A stretch of 64,000 bases of DNA from Pseudanabaena sp. lw0831. Its GTDB lineage: Bacteria; Cyanobacteriota; Cyanobacteriia; Pseudanabaenales; Pseudanabaenaceae. Below the pieces are notes generated by a model, which worked only from the letters and a program-made list of their open reading frames with translations, was not told the DNA's origin and did no database searches. The translations under genes and the position numbers were made by a program. This document shows, piece after piece, positions 6,804 through 51,800 of the stretch (position 1 is its first letter; the number at the start of each line of letters is the position of its first letter). The stretch is from assembly GCF_016584665.1 (NCBI RefSeq), contig NZ_BBJB01000073.1:1-64000 (forward strand), given 5' to 3'.

Positions 6804-8066
6804 ATGCAGTCCTTAACTACCTTCTCAAACCTTGATACGCACCTTCGCAAAAATCTGACTGCGGTTTTTTGGGCTGGTCTATTTTTCTGGTCGAGCATGG
6901 CATCACAGTTGCCGACCTTACCGCTTTATATCCGCAGTTTGACACAGTCATTTGATCAAATCGGGATCATCATGGGTTCTTTTGCGATTGGGTTGCTCGT
7001 ATGTCGTTCCTACCTTGGCAAGCTTTCTGATCGCAAAGGTAGACGCTACACAATGAGAATTGGGTTGATCGTGGCGGCAATAGTTCCCTTATGCTATGCC
7101 TTATTACCATCTATCCCTTTATTGATATTATTTCGCGCAATTCATGGAATTAGTATTGCGGCGTTTGCGGTGAGCTATAGTGCCTTAGTCTCAGACCTTG
7201 CGCCAATTGAGCAACGTGGCGAAATAATTGGCTATATGAGCTTAGTAAATCCTTTGGGTTTGGCTTTTGGCCCTGCGATCGGTGGCTTGATGCAAGAGAC
7301 TTGGGGATATCAACCTCTATTTATTACTGCCTCTTTGCTTGCGTTTGCGGGATTGTTGTTGACAACTCTAATTGAAGACGAAGGTAGTGAACGCGATCGC
7401 AAAATCGCCACAGCATCTATAGTAAAGCCAAAATTTTGGCAGACTTTCCTTAATCCTAGAGTGAGAATTCCTTCTACAGTTTTGTTGCTGGTTGGCTTAT
7501 CCTTTGGGACACTCAGTGCTTTTATGCCAATTTTGATGCAGCAGAAGCATATTGCCCTGAATGCAGGTTTATTCTATATGGCCGCAGCTTTGTCTGGATT
7601 TATCATTCGCTTCCCTGTTGGAAGGCTAAGTGATGAGTGGGGTCGTGGTATCTTCATTTCGATTGGCATCTTCTTTTACGGATTATCGATGGCGATCATC
7701 TATTTTGCTAGCCATGATTATGAATTTTTACTATCAGGAATTGCGGAAGGAATCGGTTCAGGAATTGTGATTCCTGCGATCGTGGCATTGCTTGCCGATC
7801 GCACGGTTCCACAAGAGCGCGGCTATGTATTTGGCATGACATGGATCGGCTTTGATGTGGGGATCGCTGTTGCTGGACCAATTATGGGCAAGATGATTAG
7901 CTTTGTAGGCATCACCAATATCTTCGCGATCGCTACTGGGCTTTGCATTGTAGGACTGGTTGTTTTTGCTACGCAGTCTAACAAAACCGTACATGAGTCG
8001 TTTAGATTTGCGATCGGTAAGTCAAGCGATCGCTATGCGATCAAGTCAGCAACAGTTTCCTCTTAA
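6804..8066 (+). CDS. Major facilitator superfamily transporter
   Basis: The 420-residue protein has twelve predicted membrane helices. The MFS loop motif lies between helices 2 and 3 (GKLSDRKGRRYTM, near residue 75), with a related GRLSDEWGRG in the second half. The ATG at 6804 (MQSLTTFSNLD) is preferred over an in-frame TTG at 6753. GGAG lies very close upstream at 6798-6801. The sequence resembles drug or multi-substrate efflux members (DHA1-type), but no substrate can be inferred. The TAA stop overlaps the left arm of a long GC-rich palindrome that probably ends transcription. Confidence 0.85.
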   Translation: MQSLTTFSNLDTHLRKNLTAVFWAGLFFWSSMASQLPTLPLYIRSLTQSFDQIGIIMGSFAIGLLVCRSYLGKLSDRKGRRYTMRIGLIVAAIVPLCYALLPSIPLLILFRAIHGISIAAFAVSYSALVSDLAPIEQRGEIIGYMSLVNPLGLAFGPAIGGLMQETWGYQPLFITASLLAFAGLLLTTLIEDEGSERDRKIATASIVKPKFWQTFLNPRVRIPSTVLLLVGLSFGTLSAFMPILMQQKHIALNAGLFYMAAALSGFIIRFPVGRLSDEWGRGIFISIGIFFYGLSMAIIYFASHDYEFLLSGIAEGIGSGIVIPAIVALLADRTVPQERGYVFGMTWIGFDVGIAVAGPIMGKMISFVGITNIFAIATGLCIVGLVVFATQSNKTVHESFRFAIGKSSDRYAIKSATVSS

Positions 8067-8103
8067 AGATGAGAGGCGGCGCTTCGCGCCGCCTCTCATC
8101 TTT
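8065..8103. terminator. Long palindrome between convergent genes
   Basis: An 18-bp perfect stem, AAAGATGAGAGGCGGCGC with its complement, closed by a TTC loop and followed by TTTTT. It starts within the MFS stop codon and lies downstream of fbp on the other strand. It carries the recurrent GGCGC-TTC-GCGCC core. Confidence 0.9.
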
Positions 8104-21120: not shown

Positions 21121-21177
21121 CTTTCATCAAAAAATAAATGGGTGCGCAAAGCGCACCCATTTATTTTTTGATGAAAG
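21121..21177. terminator. 27-bp perfect palindrome
   Basis: The arms 21121-21147 and 21151-21177 are perfectly complementary over 27 bp, around AAA. The tip reads GGGTGCGC-AAA-GCGCACCC and the outer part CTTTCATC. It lies ten bases after the previous stop and about 55 bp before sbcD. Confidence 0.92.
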
Positions 21178-21231: not shown

Positions 21232-22518
21232 ATGACTATTAAAGTTTTACACCTCTCCGATATTCATCTTGGTAGTACTACTCATGGAAAGGTTAATCCG
21301 CAAACAGGATTGAATACTCGCCTAGAGGACTTTGTGGCGGCCTTGACGATCTGTATAGATCGCGCAATTAACGAGCCAGCCGATATCGTTCTATTTGGTG
21401 GTGATGCTTTTCCTGATGCTACGCCGCCGCCACTAGTGCAACAGGCTTTTGCCAAGCAATTTCGCCGCCTTGCGGATGCTGGGATTCCTACGGTGTTATT
21501 AGTGGGAAATCATGACCAACATTCACAGGGAGTTGGTGGCGCGAGTCTGGCTATTTATCGCAGTCTTGCTGTGCCGAACTTCACCGTGGGCGACACGATC
21601 GCCACGCATCGGATTTCCACAAAGGCAGGGGATATTCAGATTATTACCTTGCCTTGGATTACGCGATCGACTTTGCTGACTAAAGCTGAGACAGAAGGCT
21701 TCTCGATGGCTGAGGTAAGCCAGTTTCTGATAGATCGCTTGCAGGTAGTGATCGAAGGCGAAATCCGCCAACTCGATCCACAATTGCCGACGATTATGCT
21801 GGCTCATGTGATGGTCGATACAGCTACCTATGGAGCAGAGAGGTTTCTAGCGGCTGGCAAAGGTTTTACGATTCCTCTATCGATGCTAACCCGTGAAGCC
21901 TTTGACTATGTGGCGCTCGGTCATGTGCATCGCCATCAGATCTTGGCGACGCAACCACTTGTGGTTTATCCAGGTAGTATTGAGCGCGTTGATTTTGGTG
22001 AAGAGAATGAAGCGAAGGGATATTGCTGGTTAGAAGTTGAGAAGGGGAATGTAAAGTTTGATTTCTGCCCAATTCCTACCCGTGTTTTTCGGACAATGGA
22101 AGTGGATGTAACCCAATCTGATGATCCACAAGCGAAGTTACTTAAGGCGATCGCAAAAGGGAAAATCGATCAGGCGATCGCAAGATTAATTTACAAAGTT
22201 AAAGCCGAGCAGTTAGCATTAATTGATGATCGCCTATTACATGAAGCAATGGCGATCGCCCATAACTATGCATTGATCCCTGAAGTTGTCAGTCAAAATC
22301 CTCGTAGTAGGATGCCAGAACTCAGCACTGCTGAGGCACTCGATCCGATGACTGCTCTCAAGACCTATCTCAGCACTCGCGAAGACCTTAAAAATCTTGA
22401 ACCTGAAATGCTGGTTGCGGCGCAAGAATTACTCAGTGAGATTGGGTTAGGAATGGATGAACTTGATGCTGTTGATGATTCAGCTCAGTCTAGTCAATTG
22501 GTGATAAGTTTCAATTAG
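21232..22518 (+). CDS. sbcD: SbcD/Mre11-type DNA repair exonuclease
   Basis: The 428-residue protein carries the five calcineurin-like phosphoesterase motifs: LHLSDIHLG (residues 6-14), LFGGDAF, VGNHDQH, LAHVMVD and ALGHVHRH. These ligate two Mn ions. This arrangement is that of SbcD/Mre11, which with the ATPase SbcC/Rad50 cuts hairpins and DNA ends during repair. SbcC is not encoded in the window. Its location in a genome region full of long perfect palindromes is noteworthy, because SbcCD cleaves such structures in E. coli. The last 39 bp overlap the convergent tatD gene. Confidence 0.88.
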   Translation: MTIKVLHLSDIHLGSTTHGKVNPQTGLNTRLEDFVAALTICIDRAINEPADIVLFGGDAFPDATPPPLVQQAFAKQFRRLADAGIPTVLLVGNHDQHSQGVGGASLAIYRSLAVPNFTVGDTIATHRISTKAGDIQIITLPWITRSTLLTKAETEGFSMAEVSQFLIDRLQVVIEGEIRQLDPQLPTIMLAHVMVDTATYGAERFLAAGKGFTIPLSMLTREAFDYVALGHVHRHQILATQPLVVYPGSIERVDFGEENEAKGYCWLEVEKGNVKFDFCPIPTRVFRTMEVDVTQSDDPQAKLLKAIAKGKIDQAIARLIYKVKAEQLALIDDRLLHEAMAIAHNYALIPEVVSQNPRSRMPELSTAEALDPMTALKTYLSTREDLKNLEPEMLVAAQELLSEIGLGMDELDAVDDSAQSSQLVISFN

Positions 22519-25477: not shown

Positions 25478-27166
25478 ATGTTTTATTTTCAAAAGTTTTC
25501 GGTTCAACCATTTTTAGTTGCTTCAGTTCTGTTATTACCATTCGCCGCTGGAACCGCCAGTGCAAATGAAGTAATATCGATTTCAACCTCTCAAAATAGC
25601 GCGAAGGTACATAACACTTTACAAAAAATCGAGAAGGATACTCTAACTGAGTCTTCTATTCAAGAGCCAGAAAAAGCCTCCCAAAATGTTACTTCAGTAT
25701 CGCAGCTCTCTGATATAAAACCAACAGACTGGGCATTTACATCATTGCAGTCCCTAGTGGAAAGATATGGATGTATTGCTGGATTTCCTGATCGTACTTA
25801 CCGAGGAAAGCAAGCCTTATCGCGTTATGAATTTGCGGCTGGTTTAAATGCTTGTTTGGATAAGATCAACGAAATTATTTCTGCTGGTTTAGCAGATAAA
25901 GTCAGCAAGGAAGACCTTGCCACGCTAAAGAAACTTCAAGAAGAGTTTGCCGCAGAACTTGCAACACTAAGAGGTCGAGTTGACGCGCTTGATGCCAAAG
26001 TCACTAAGCTAGAAGCCCAACAGTTTTCCACCACTACTAAACTAAGTGGCACATTGATTTTTGCTCTTGCCGATACCTTTGGCGGCGTAGGAACAGGAAC
26101 AGCGATTCAAAACCCTCAAAAAACCACCGATTCTACGAATCTGAACTTTTCATATCGCACAAGAATTAACTTTGATACGAGCTTTACTGGCAAAGATTTT
26201 CTTCGTATTCGTTTGCAAGCAGGCAATACGCCCAATATTGGGAGTGCTACAGGCACTAATATGGCTCGTTTGGCTTTTACTCAAGACACAGCAAACACTT
26301 TTGAGATGGAGAAGCTATTTTACAGGTTCCCAATTGGGAGTAATTTCTCCGCCTATGTAGCAGCCAACAATCTTGATCCAGATGATGTCGCTGACACTTT
26401 AAATCCATATTTTGACAGTAGTGATAGAGGTGCGCTATCAAGATTTGGGCGTTACGATCCGCTAACATTCCGTGGGCCATCAGGTATTGGCATTGGGTTT
26501 AATTACAAAATCGATCCACAATTTTCTATAGCTGCTAGTTACTTTGGTAAGTCTGCTAGTAGTGCAGGTGGCGCTAATGTCCCGACAGGACAGAATGGTT
26601 TATTCAACGGTGCATACATCGCAAACTTGCAGTTTGTTTTTGCTCCTGCGAAAAACTTTAAAATCGGAGCGATGTATGCTCGTAGCTTTGAGCCAGCTAA
26701 AGATGTCAACCTATCTTCAAGCACGGGTAGTAACTTCGGAAATCAACCGTTTGGAGCCTCTGATACCTCAGCCGATCGCTATGGTGCTCAGTTTGAATGG
26801 TTGGTTACAAAAGGATTCAACTTTGGTGGTTGGGTTGGTTTTGCCAATGCCCGACAAGAGTCAGGAACAAATGTTGGCAGAACTGCTAACTTGTTTAACT
26901 GGAGCGTTAACCTAGCATTCCCCGATCTCTTTGCTGAAGGCAATAGAGGTGGAATCATTTTTGGAATGCCCCCAAAAGTCACTTCAAATAGTGACCCCAC
27001 AAGAGTTGATCCAGACACTGCATATCTTCTTGAACTCCAATATTCTTTTCGCGTCAGCAAGAATATATCAGTTACTCCTGGTGTAATTGCTATCTTCAAT
27101 CCCAACCACAATGCATTGAACCCTACAACTTGGGTGGCAACGATTAGAACACTATTCACTTTCTAG
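25478..27166 (+). CDS. OprB/SomA-type outer-membrane porin with SLH domain
   Basis: The 562-residue protein has a signal peptide (hydrophobic core to about residue 30, with ASA-NE as likely cleavage). An SLH-like domain follows (about 82-140: DIKPTDWAFTSLQSLVERYG and GFPDRTYRGKQALSRYEFAAGLN), then a coiled coil (about 150-185, DALDAKVTKLEAQ) that spans the periplasm and peptidoglycan. A C-terminal beta-barrel (about 190-562) ends in a terminal Phe, as expected for outer-membrane insertion. Cyanobacterial relatives are general or iron-uptake porins. Its position directly before a phosphonate ABC transporter suggests that it lets phosphonates or phosphate esters through the outer membrane. A palindromic terminator separates it from the transporter. 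Confidence 0.88.
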   Translation: MFYFQKFSVQPFLVASVLLLPFAAGTASANEVISISTSQNSAKVHNTLQKIEKDTLTESSIQEPEKASQNVTSVSQLSDIKPTDWAFTSLQSLVERYGCIAGFPDRTYRGKQALSRYEFAAGLNACLDKINEIISAGLADKVSKEDLATLKKLQEEFAAELATLRGRVDALDAKVTKLEAQQFSTTTKLSGTLIFALADTFGGVGTGTAIQNPQKTTDSTNLNFSYRTRINFDTSFTGKDFLRIRLQAGNTPNIGSATGTNMARLAFTQDTANTFEMEKLFYRFPIGSNFSAYVAANNLDPDDVADTLNPYFDSSDRGALSRFGRYDPLTFRGPSGIGIGFNYKIDPQFSIAASYFGKSASSAGGANVPTGQNGLFNGAYIANLQFVFAPAKNFKIGAMYARSFEPAKDVNLSSSTGSNFGNQPFGASDTSADRYGAQFEWLVTKGFNFGGWVGFANARQESGTNVGRTANLFNWSVNLAFPDLFAEGNRGGIIFGMPPKVTSNSDPTRVDPDTAYLLELQYSFRVSKNISVTPGVIAIFNPNHNALNPTTWVATIRTLFTF

Positions 27167-27180
27167 AAGGTAGTCCTAAA

Positions 27181-27223
27181 TAGGTAAGGATGGTCGGCGC
27201 TTCGCGCCGACCATCCTTACCTA
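27181..27223. terminator. Palindrome, 20-bp arms, twin of 42199-42249
   Basis: TAGGTAAGGATGGTCGGCGC, loop TTC, and the perfect complement. The aligned copy at 42199-42249 differs at two positions of each arm, with compensating changes. Confidence 0.92.
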
Positions 27224-27289
27224 ACTTCTAAAATTGATTGGGAGATTTTGAAGTGAATATTTTTACTGTTTTATAAGGAGTAATTAATT

Positions 27290-35330: not shown

Positions 35331-35385
35331 AAACCCCATTTATAGAGTTGCGGCGCGAAGCGCAGCAACTCTATAAATGGGGTTT
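35331..35385. repeat. 21-bp-arm palindrome with nested outer arms
   Basis: AAACCCCATTTATAGAGTTGC (35331-35351) and its perfect complement (35365-35385) enclose GGCGCGAAGCGCA, itself a small GCGC-GAA-GCGC hairpin. Further out, TATAGCCA (35304-35311) pairs with TGGCTATA (35401-35408). Confidence 0.9.
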
Positions 35386-38870: not shown

Positions 38871-38915
38871 CAAAAAGAGAAAAGGCGGCGCTTCGCGCCA
38901 CCTTTTCTCTTTTTG
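38871..38915. repeat. 21-bp-arm palindrome, GGCGC-TTC-GCGCC core
   Basis: CAAAAAGAGAAAAGGCGGCGC, TTC, and the complement with a single mismatch. It lies in the 640-bp gap 38552-39195, which holds this, a CCCACTG-TTTC-CAGTGGG hairpin (38987-39004), the palindrome at 39118 and no gene that I accept. Confidence 0.85.
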
Positions 38916-39117: not shown

Positions 39118-39154
39118 AGGAGAGGTAACGGCAATTATTGCCGTTACCTCTCCT
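39118..39154. repeat. 17-bp-arm palindrome before DUF3082 gene
   Basis: AGGAGAGGTAACGGCAA, loop TTA, and its perfect complement. The core lacks the usual GGCGC motif. Confidence 0.85.
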
Positions 39155-39510: not shown

Positions 39511-39587
39511 GTAGCTACGCAAAATTAAATATAAAAACCAAAAATCTGTACCGTCCGCTTCGCGGACGGTACAGATTTTTGGTTTTT
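39508..39587. repeat. Palindrome with TAAGTAGCTA end, 26-bp arms
   Basis: The outer end TAAGTAGCTACGCAAAATT begins at the DUF3082 stop. The palindrome 39533-39587 follows, with perfect arms of about 26 bp (outer AAAAACCAAAAATCTG, inner GTACCGTCCGC) around TTC. The right outer end is missing. Confidence 0.9.
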
Positions 39588-42064: not shown

Positions 42065-42193
42065 CTTTGCAATCAATTAATGATGTCAATGATAACATTT
42101 CGCGATCGCTCTAAAAATATGTCATGAGGGCGATTCGCTTTAACTATGACTGCAAAATTTTTCGCAAGCTGTCAGCGATCGCCTAAACATTTG

Positions 42194-42270
42194 AGTGCTA
42201 AATAGGTAAGAATGGGCGGCGCTTCGCGCCGCCCATTCTTACCTATTTAAATCCTTACCTTTTTAGCACT
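42194..42270. repeat. 24-bp-arm palindrome, twin of 27181-27223
   Basis: TAAATAGGTAAGAATGGGCG (42199-42218) continues into GCGC, TTC and the perfect complement to 42249. Outside lie AGTGCTAA (42194-42201) and TTAGCACT (42263-42270), which also pair, with AATCCTTACCTTT inserted on the right. The 303-bp gap before hsdM holds nothing else that I recognise. Confidence 0.92.
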
Positions 42271-42367
42271 ACCGCCTAACCAATGTATTGATCAAAGAGA
42301 GGCACAGAATGTGGCAATGAGTTAAAGTAGAGCCTTGATCGCCTAAAGATATTAGCCCCCAGCCCGT

Positions 42368-47849: not shown

Positions 47850-47945
47850 ATGGCAACTAAATCTACATCTGAACAAGCCTTTGAAAATGCGATCGCCGAT
47901 ATTTTATTAGCATCTGGATATCAGCGTCACCAATCAAAAAACTAA
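47850..47945 (+). pseudogene. Duplicated 5' fragment of hsdR
   Basis: ATG 47850 opens MATKSTSEQAFENAIADILL, continuing through ASGYQRHQSKN to a stop. Residues 6 onward are almost identical to the start of hsdR at 48832 (MNRTSEQDFENAIADVLL). The fragment is 31 codons long. It directly follows the HNH gene by 23 bp, where the full hsdR would originally have started. Confidence 0.88.
47865..47939 (+). repeat. 75-bp direct repeat flanking a TA cassette (copy at 48841-48915)
   Basis: By eye the two 75-bp segments differ at three positions (about 96% identity). They bracket the toxin-antitoxin genes, with a distance of 976 bp between equivalent points. The downstream copy is the working hsdR start. 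Confidence 0.9.
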
Positions 47946-48831: not shown

Positions 48832-51800
48832 ATGAATAGAACATCTGAACAAGACTTTGAAAATGCGATCGCCGATGTTTTATTAGCATCTGGATATCAG
48901 CGTCATCAATCAAAAGAATTCGATCGTGAAAATGCGATTTTTCGAGATGTTGCGCTCAAATTTATCCAAACAACGCAAACAAAAGAATGGGATAAATTAG
49001 CCGCCTTGCATGGTGACAAAACAGGCGATCGCGTTATCACCGCCCTTTGTAAATGGATGGATACCAACGGCTCACTCAGTACCCTAAGACATGGCTTCAA
49101 ATGTTATGGCAAAACTCTCCGAATCGCCTTTTTCAAACCAGCACACGGACTCAACCCAGAACTAGAAGCCCGTTACGCCGCCAACATTTTAGGATTCACC
49201 CGACAACTTTACTTCAGTCCCAAAAATCAACAATCTCTCGATGTTACTCTCAGTATTAACGGCGTACCATTAATCACCGTAGAACTCAAAAATCCTCTCA
49301 GTAATCAAACCGTAGCCGATGCGATCGCTCAATATCGTAGCGATCGCGATCCACGCGAAAAAATATTTGATTTCAAAAAGCGCACCTTAGTTCATTTTGC
49401 TGTCGATACCGAAGAAGTCCACATGACTACTCGACTAGCAGGAACTTCTAGCTATTTTTTGCCATTTAACCAAGGCAGAGACGGCGGCACAGGCAACCCA
49501 GCCGATCCACAAGGTCGCAACTACCGCACCGCCTACCTGTGGGAAGAAGTCCTCCAACCCGATAGCTTGCTAGATCTGCTCTCCCGTTTTCTCCACCTCC
49601 AAGAAGAAGAAAAACTCACCGATGAAGGCAAAAAGGTCAAAAAAGAAACCATGATCTTTCCCCGCTATCATCAACTAAAAGCCGTGCGCGATCTCGTTAA
49701 CGCCGCCGCTACCGAAGGCACAGGACACAACTATCTCATCGAACATTCCGCAGGTAGTGGTAAAAGTAACACCATTGGTTGGTTAGCCCATCGCCTCTCA
49801 TCGCTCCATGATGCCCACGATAAGCGCGTCTTCGATAGCGTCATTGTCGTCACTGATAGATTAGTTCTCGATCAACAATTACAAAACACAATCTATCAAT
49901 TCGATCACCGCCAAGGTGTAGTCCAGAAAATCGAAGAAGATTCGCGCCAACTAGCTGAGGCACTAGAAAATGCCGTTCCCATTATCATCACCACTCTTCA
50001 GAAATTCCCATTTGTCGCACAACAACTAGCCAAACTATCTGAAGCGCGAGGTGAATCAACTAAAAGCCGATTACCAACGCGCAAATGTGCCGTCATTATT
50101 GATGAAGCGCACAGTTCCCAATCTGGTGAAACCGCGACCAAACTGAAAGAGGTACTCGGCGGTGAAGAGCTGCACCAGAAAGCCCAAGAACTTGCCGCAG
50201 AAGAAGGAGAATCAAACTTAGAAGCCTTGTATCGCAGCATGGTCAAGCGCGGCAATCAGCCCAATATTAGCTTTTTTGCCTTCACCGCCACTCCCAAACA
50301 TAAAACCATGAAAATCTTTGGGCGTGATGGCGAACCCTTTAGTAAATACTCCATGCGTCAGGCGATCGAAGAGGGCTTTATTCTTGATGTCCTCCAGAAC
50401 TACATCACCTACAAGACCTACTATCGACTACTAAAAGCCTGTGAAGATGACCCAAATGTTGAGAGCAAAAAAGCCGCCAAAGCCCTAAGTCGTTACATGC
50501 GTCTTCATCCCCATAATATTTCTCAAAAAACGGAAATTATGGTGGAGCATTTTCAAAATTACAGCCGCCATAAAATTGGTGGTCGGGCTAAAGCTATGGT
50601 AGTTACAGGCTCACGTTTAGAAGCAGTTCGCTATAAACAAGCCTTCGATAAATTAATCAAAGAAAAAGGCTATAACATCAAAAGCTTAGTTGCCTTTTCT
50701 GGAACCGTAGTTGATGACAAAATCCCTGAAAAGACCTATACCGAGCCAGAAATGAATGGCGGTATTCGAGAGAAAGATTTACCCGAAGAATTTGCCACTA
50801 GAGACTATCAAGTGTTGCTGGTTGCTGATAAATATCAAACTGGCTTCGATCAACCTTTGCTACACACAATGTATGTGGATAAGAAACTTGGAGGCATACA
50901 GGCAGTCCAAACCCTATCTAGACTCAATCGTACCCATCCTCTCAAAAAAGAAACTTTTATTCTCGATTTTGTCAACGATCCTGAAGAAATTCAAAAAGCC
51001 TTCAAAGTTTATTTTGACGGGGCAACTATGGGCGAAGAAGTCGATCCCGATCGCTTATATCAAATTCAAAATGAGCTAAATGAGGCGGCAATTTATTTAG
51101 ACCCAGAGGTTGACCAGTTTTGTGAAATATTTTTTGCTCCCAAACAACGTCAAAGCCAAGCCGATCACAAAATCATGAATGCCTCGATCGACAAAGCTGT
51201 TAGTCGGTTTCAGGATTGGCTCAAAAATCAAGAGGACGAAGCTGAATTGTGGCGCGGTAAAGTACAGGCTTTCTGCAACCTTTACGCATTCCTGAGTCAA
51301 GTAATTCCCTATCAAGACAGTGACTTAGAAAAGCTATACACCTATCTCAAGCATTTAGCCCTAAAACTACCAAAAAGAACATCAAGTTCAGGCTATCAGT
51401 TTGACGATGAAGTTCAACTCGCCTACTATCGCCTCCAAAAGATTAGCGAAGGCTCCATCAGCCTCCATGAAGGCTATGCATCAAAACTTGATGGGCCAAA
51501 AGAAGTTGGCAGTGGCAAGGTTAGAGAAAGTGATGTTCCTCTCTCCCGTCTTATCGATCTAATTAATGAAAGATTTGGAGAAGATCTAAATGAAGCCGAT
51601 CAGTTATTTTTTGACCAGATTACTGAAGTTGCCGCCCAAGTCGAGGCGATCGCCCAAGCCGCCCAAGCTAATCCCATCGATAAATTTCAACTTGTTTTTA
51701 GCCAAGTACTAGAGTCACTCTTTATCGAGCGTATGGAATTAAATGAAGATCTTTTTGCTCGTTACATGAATGACCCTGAGTTTAAAGAATTAGTATCTCA

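Follow-up and report, generated by a model that had tools for sequence, protein, structure and literature searches.

Quasipalindrome correction by template switching is an established source of matched arms in inverted repeats (Ripley 1982; Rosche, Trinh and Sinden 1997; van Noort et al. 2003, as cited in PMC8604942). In yeast, a template-switch mechanism has been described with both of its signatures, homogenisation of the arms and inversion of the spacer (PMC8604942), and template switching has also been put forward to explain how RNA stems acquire compensatory changes (PMC8794818). Compensatory stem changes are nevertheless the standard evidence for conserved RNA structure, and how both sides of a stem come to change is an old question, now directly testable in a cyanobacterium. 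In chloroplast DNA, minute inversions at hairpins were reportedly described by Kelchner and Wendel in 1996. Here, we report twin palindromes in Pseudanabaena sp. lw0831 and compare orthologous hairpins among its relatives. Very probably, the twins are copies of a MITE whose hairpin tips are inverted, and whose arms are rewritten, by template switching in replication.

Results

The window is the whole 64,000-nucleotide stretch of DNA that was analysed. Copy 1 (27181-27223) is intergenic, flanked by genes for an OprB porin and a solute-binding protein, and reads TAGGTAAGGATGGTCGGCGC-TTC-GCGCCGACCATCCTTACCTA, a perfect 20-bp stem with a TTC tip. Copy 2 (42199-42249), upstream of hsdM, reads TAAATAGGTAAGAATGGGCGGCGC-TTC-GCGCCGCCCATTCTTACCTATTTA and has a perfect 24-bp stem with the same tip. 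Over their common 43 bp the copies differ in the left arm by G/A and T/G and in the right arm by the partner changes C/T and A/C, exactly as the first-pass annotation had read them; each of the two altered stem pairs (G-C/A-T and T-A/G-C) is compensated (2/2). The DNA fold energies are -25.2 kcal/mol for copy 1 and -29.2 kcal/mol for copy 2, with z about -12 relative to shuffled sequence. The window harbours 20 hairpins of comparable grade, against 0 in three Markov-shuffled windows, and their density is 0.31/kb as compared to 0.034/kb in E. coli K-12. Across the 5.26 Mb of the genome the core GCGCTTCGCGC has 196 matches and its reversed control 4, and 25 of the 26 Pseudanabaena genomes searched contain the extended core GGCGGCGCTTCGCGCCGCC, as opposed to 0 of 71 other genomes. 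A replication-strand bias of the core was only apparent, being an artefact of listing; the list from a single genome was mixed.

Both palindromes belong to a family of non-autonomous, MITE-like elements of about 83 bp, each made up internally of a long inverted repeat that is nearly perfect. This common origin in one mobile element explains why their sequence identity continues to the left of the stem (AGTNCTAAATAGG). Copies of about 83 bp have the terminal inverted repeats GGTAGTSCTAAA ... TTTAGSACTACC, and 8-bp target-site duplications were exact in four cases (GAGAATGG, CTAATTTT, TGATTTTC and CCATTTTG) and matched at 7/8 in two more, as they did for both window copies. At copy 1, the terminal repeat GGTAGTCCTAAA (27169-27180, plus strand) follows TTCTAGAA (27161-27168, plus strand), a possible left target-site duplication judging from the sequence, whose right partner would be TTCTAAAA (27226-27233, 7/8); the opposite end of this element appears to have been lost. 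Copy 2 sits in a nearly complete element on the minus strand (42190-42273), with an intact end GGTAGTGCTAAA at 42262-42273 (minus strand), a degenerate other end and near-duplicated flanks, GCCTAAAC at 42182-42189 and GCCTAACC at 42274-42281 (read directly). The exact stem pattern is found in the same genome in six two-armed and three one-armed copies. Syntenic stretches of the genomes G002 and G021, about 94% identical, contain occupied as well as empty sites, and many palindromes are therefore insertions.

No autonomous element or insertion sequence with the same ends was found among 14 terminal-repeat matches in the lw0831 genome. Mobilisation as a REP/REPIN by a RAYT was rejected; the sole Y1_Tnp gene (C48) is not flanked by repeats, and its 3.3-kb locus contained no strong hairpin and no terminal repeat. 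Two elements of about 250 bp (L275 and L283, at G000:C40 and G000:C110) have the same GGTAGTCCTAAAAAGGAAAGGAT ends, but a different interior and no evident gene. G002 and G021 also contain a further MITE family (L137-L176), inserted at TA and present in great abundance; its ends AAGTAGCTAGGC...GCCTAGCTACTT flank a long hairpin, and the sister species has clean empty sites.

The stem variant of copy 2, AAGAATGGGC, is present in both of its arms and recurs at a different site in another species (G002, L153), so that the difference between the twins is mostly inherited, from two element subfamilies. Selection on the stem or arm-templated correction had been proposed from the twins in the first-pass annotation, but this pair alone implies neither. 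Replacement of hairpins by re-insertion or gene conversion from dispersed copies, which would import matched arms ready-made, is the likely reason why the twins differ, and of 130 flanked hairpins of G002, 22 were absent and 35 were classed as replaced or overly divergent. Many orthologous sites, on the other hand, change in one or two pairs or in the tip alone while the remaining stem and the flanks stay unchanged, and hairpins of unrelated sequence behave alike; as a general explanation, replacement is quite improbable.

Further copies of the family covary. In an alignment of 14 copies, 9 of 20 pairs are altered on both sides, and the covariation score is 0.276 as compared to 0.108 in shuffled alignments (0/500) and at most 0.088 in slid ones. 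Frequent unpaired changes, which according to the earlier annotation would make the twin pair a coincidence, are not a property of the family: the inner 16 pairs hold 16 cells with a change on both sides and only 3 unpaired cells out of 224, and most unpaired cells of the whole alignment lie in the four outermost pairs.

At the site of copy 1, the orthologue in G019 (Pseudanabaena sp. M085S1 MAG; L061/L033/L210) occupies the same intergenic position between flanks of 98% and 92% identity and differs in 3 of 20 pairs, all of them compensated (3/3). The hairpin is absent from this site in G008 (UWO311), where an insertion of about 1.3 kb carries another gene, a 372-codon reading frame (L062, 8620-9965) with a putative metallophosphatase-like sequence. 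A hairpin at 38871-38915 with the same GCGC-TTC-GCGC tip as the twins has paired orthologues in G008, G019, G010, G005 and G022, with arms that have diverged and still match. Compensated changes are found in the hairpin at 39118-39154 in G008, G017, G019 and G012. One arm mismatch near its tip is common to G008, G017 and G019, and some mismatches therefore escape correction for long; at the orthologous site in G013 (L048), a run of N stands inside the hairpin, as though assembly had failed there. The hairpin at 39533-39587 has a TTC tip in the window, GAA in G017 and GTA in G019, with three to four compensated arm changes. Taken over several species, orthologues of these three hairpins (38871, 39118 and 39533) have the tips TTC, GAA, GTA and TTT, and their diverged arms still pair.

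Other hairpins of the window include one with a GGCGGCGC-TTC-GCGCCGCC core (8065-8103) and one with a GAA tip, the opposite orientation of the core (35331-35385). Two overlapping, long and near-perfect hairpins with 26-bp arms lie at 1521-1619 and have the segment AAACCTATTTT in common. A perfect 27-bp hairpin (21121-21177) is located just upstream of a gene for an SbcD-like nuclease (21241-22017, TIGR00619); SbcD is an enzyme that attacks hairpins. The window also contains a pair of 75-nt repeats, 96% identical, at 47865-47939 and 48841-48915, 976 bases apart.

For a systematic comparison, orthologous hairpins in the assemblies of two genome pairs were matched by both of their 200-bp flanks, with a hairpin finder that favours perfect stems. 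In the close pair (G025/G023), 166 of 180 hairpins in 361 kb were kept, at a flank divergence of 0.0073-0.0095 (about 0.9%), and in the distant pair (G002/G021) 73 hairpins were kept in 620 kb, at 0.066-0.079 (about 7%). Inverted repeats of Pseudanabaena, in this and in unrelated families, invert their tips of one to a few nucleotides very often. In the close pair the tip was exactly inverted in 57 of 149 informative, indel-free hairpins and identical in 92, with arms nearly unchanged; in the distant pair 24 of 43 informative hairpins had inverted and 19 identical tips. Corrected for double flips, the close pair has 0.72 inversions per hairpin, or roughly 80-100 per hairpin per substitution per site. 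Both orientations are also found inside one family in one genome (6 TTC and 4 GAA in G025). GCGAAGC, the conserved reading of the core, which matches a very stable DNA mini-hairpin, was rejected as a requirement for flipping; the tips AAA, TTT, GTA and others flip too. In a comparison of E. coli K-12 with strain 2900 (about 2% divergence), 0 of 18 scored tips were inverted, mostly on shorter stems; with so few long stems, this comparison is not decisive and does not show Pseudanabaena to be special.

Old arm mismatches invert along with the tip. Mismatches present in both genomes at least 4 bases from the centre were flipped in 4 of 4 cases with an inverted tip and in 0 of 36 without, reaching up to 8 bases from the centre; the inner segment is therefore truly inverted, and base changes in the tip are not the cause. 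An artefact of assembly or library, in which the orientation of perfect palindromes is written at random, could be suspected since the data are assemblies only and the inverted fraction is high in the close (38%) and the distant pair (56%) alike. In the close pair, however, inverted tips are associated with longer arms (3/24 at 10-14 bp and 12/20 at 25 bp or more, P=0.003), so that short arms seldom flip, and arms of 15-17 bp, well under the usual word sizes of assembly, do so often (13/33). The accompanying mismatches likewise speak against an artefact, which would leave the paired arm changes wholly unexplained, and we regard it as very unlikely. Flipping at 15-17 bp and the co-inverting mismatches also argue against mixed cultures. 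The speed of inversion between inverted repeats is reminiscent of phase-variation switches, and a dedicated site-specific invertase could be imagined to flip the tips. The arms that flip are of many unrelated sequences, the spacers are mostly a few bases only, and the correction of arms would find no explanation; such an enzyme is extremely improbable.

Changes on both sides of the arms are far more common than independent mutation permits. Counted over the longer of the two stems, 1154 stem pairs in the distant genome pair contained 74 single and 43 paired changes, and within the shared stem there were 47 paired and 27 single changes; both counts are given as the number of single-arm changes depends on how the stem end is defined. 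Independent mutation at d=0.073 predicts about 168 single and about 2 paired changes (d^2/3), an excess of about 20-fold for the paired class. Correction of all missing singles, without preference for one direction, would instead be expected to yield about 47 paired changes. In the close pair, 2 paired and 37 single changes were found in 3100 pairs, against about 11 paired changes predicted by unbiased correction, and both paired changes were in hairpins with inverted tips. This shortfall is real, so something besides unbiased correction must act: a lag in correction, restoration of the old base or selection could each contribute.

Selection on RNA hairpins, as terminators or 3'-end stabilisers, would purge single changes and favour compensating second mutations. 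Consistent with this, of the 179 hairpins found in 620 kb of G002, 174 are outside predicted ORFs; 59 fall into convergent gaps, of which there are 77, and among 84 hairpins in tandem gaps 67 are nearer to the 3' end of the upstream gene. As location favours gene ends, some hairpins probably serve as terminators. Copy 1 itself did not have the GC-rich stem plus T run of an intrinsic terminator, no T run being found, and other hairpins in the window, for example that at 39533-39587, do end in T runs; Rfam gave no family matches in the window. Against RNA selection, it predicts neither the inversion of tips nor the flipping of mismatches, paired changes exceed independent double hits by the factor given above, and among single-arm changes in tandem-gene contexts G-U was not preferred over A-C on the sense strand (7 and 11; small numbers). 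RNA selection is thus unlikely to be the main cause. Of the two forces that had been proposed from the twins, arm-templated correction is borne out in orthologous hairpins by the excess of paired changes, the inversion of tips and the co-inverting mismatches. Selection at the RNA level draws no support from the wobble counts, and the location of the hairpins leaves room for it as a second force.

Discussion

We infer that the cause of these changes is a switch of template by the DNA polymerase, between the arms or onto the sister strand. During replication, a polymerase at the hairpin would switch to the other arm or to the sister strand; a round trip through the tip would leave it inverted, and asymmetric switch points would lead to one arm being rewritten from the other. 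By such rewriting a single mutation would become a matched pair or be erased. The twins would then represent two subfamilies whose paired differences arose earlier by template switching, and the three pairs at which copy 1 and the G019 orthologue differ would show the same process at one fixed site. The observations fit an already known mechanism, correction of quasipalindromes accompanied by inversion of the spacer, which in this bacterial chromosome is unusually active. Of its two signatures, arm homogenisation is evident in the distant pair and paired changes are too few in the close pair for the simplest model, and spacer inversion with the arms kept is evident in both. Homologous recombination between the arms combined with mismatch repair would leave an identical pattern, and selection for 3'-end hairpins may add to their retention.

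Exonuclease I is a suppressor of such template-switch events in E. coli. No homologue of its C-terminal domain was detectable in 26 of 26 cyanobacteria searched, and ExoVII and SbcD were present in 25 of the 26. The absence of exonuclease I was accordingly rejected as a peculiarity of Pseudanabaena, and the relevance of this exonuclease pattern to hairpin behaviour is suggestive only.

In this natural set of hundreds of hairpins, compensatory changes arise with tip inversions, the mark of DNA copying and not of RNA selection. Matched stem changes need not imply a functional RNA, and covariation tests such as R-scape can fire on mobile palindromes, which should serve as a warning. It is conceivable, and we put it forward tentatively, that in Pseudanabaena a DNA copying process, which turns tips over and recopies arms about 100 times as fast as sites mutate, is the main reason why long intergenic palindromes stay perfect, and that their strong covariation does not testify to functional RNA. 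Many other bacterial intergenic hairpins, judged functional by covariation, may be a similar case.

As mobile elements, the palindromes resemble bacterial MITEs in being short, with terminal inverted repeats, target duplications, many copies and empty sites, but differ in that one long hairpin makes up most of the element and that no autonomous partner was found. They share with GTAG-tagged REPs (PMC3733652) the form of small extragenic palindromes, with GTAG inside the terminal repeat, and are set apart by 8-bp target duplications, by two-ended terminal repeats and by having no connection with the genome's sole Y1 transposase gene. With respect to mutation, homogenised arms, exact inversion of the spacer, a preference for stem length and repeated, reversible events are all shared with quasipalindrome correction, where the yeast survey reported 10 spacer inversions in coding sequence (PMC8604942), as compared to 57 of 149 mostly intergenic hairpins in about 360 kb of Pseudanabaena. 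Template switching in RNA hairpins likewise explains compensatory changes by one copying event and includes loop inversions. In that study, however, compensatory change combined with loop inversion was extremely rare (6 cases) and the hairpins were those of conserved rRNA (PMC8794818), whereas in Pseudanabaena inversion is common and the stems are long, perfect and mostly intergenic. The minute inversions of chloroplasts, whose genome is of cyanobacterial ancestry, are similar in that small loops between inverted repeats invert repeatedly; the present case differs in concerning a free-living cyanobacterium and mobile palindromes, and in that the co-evolution of the arms has been measured.
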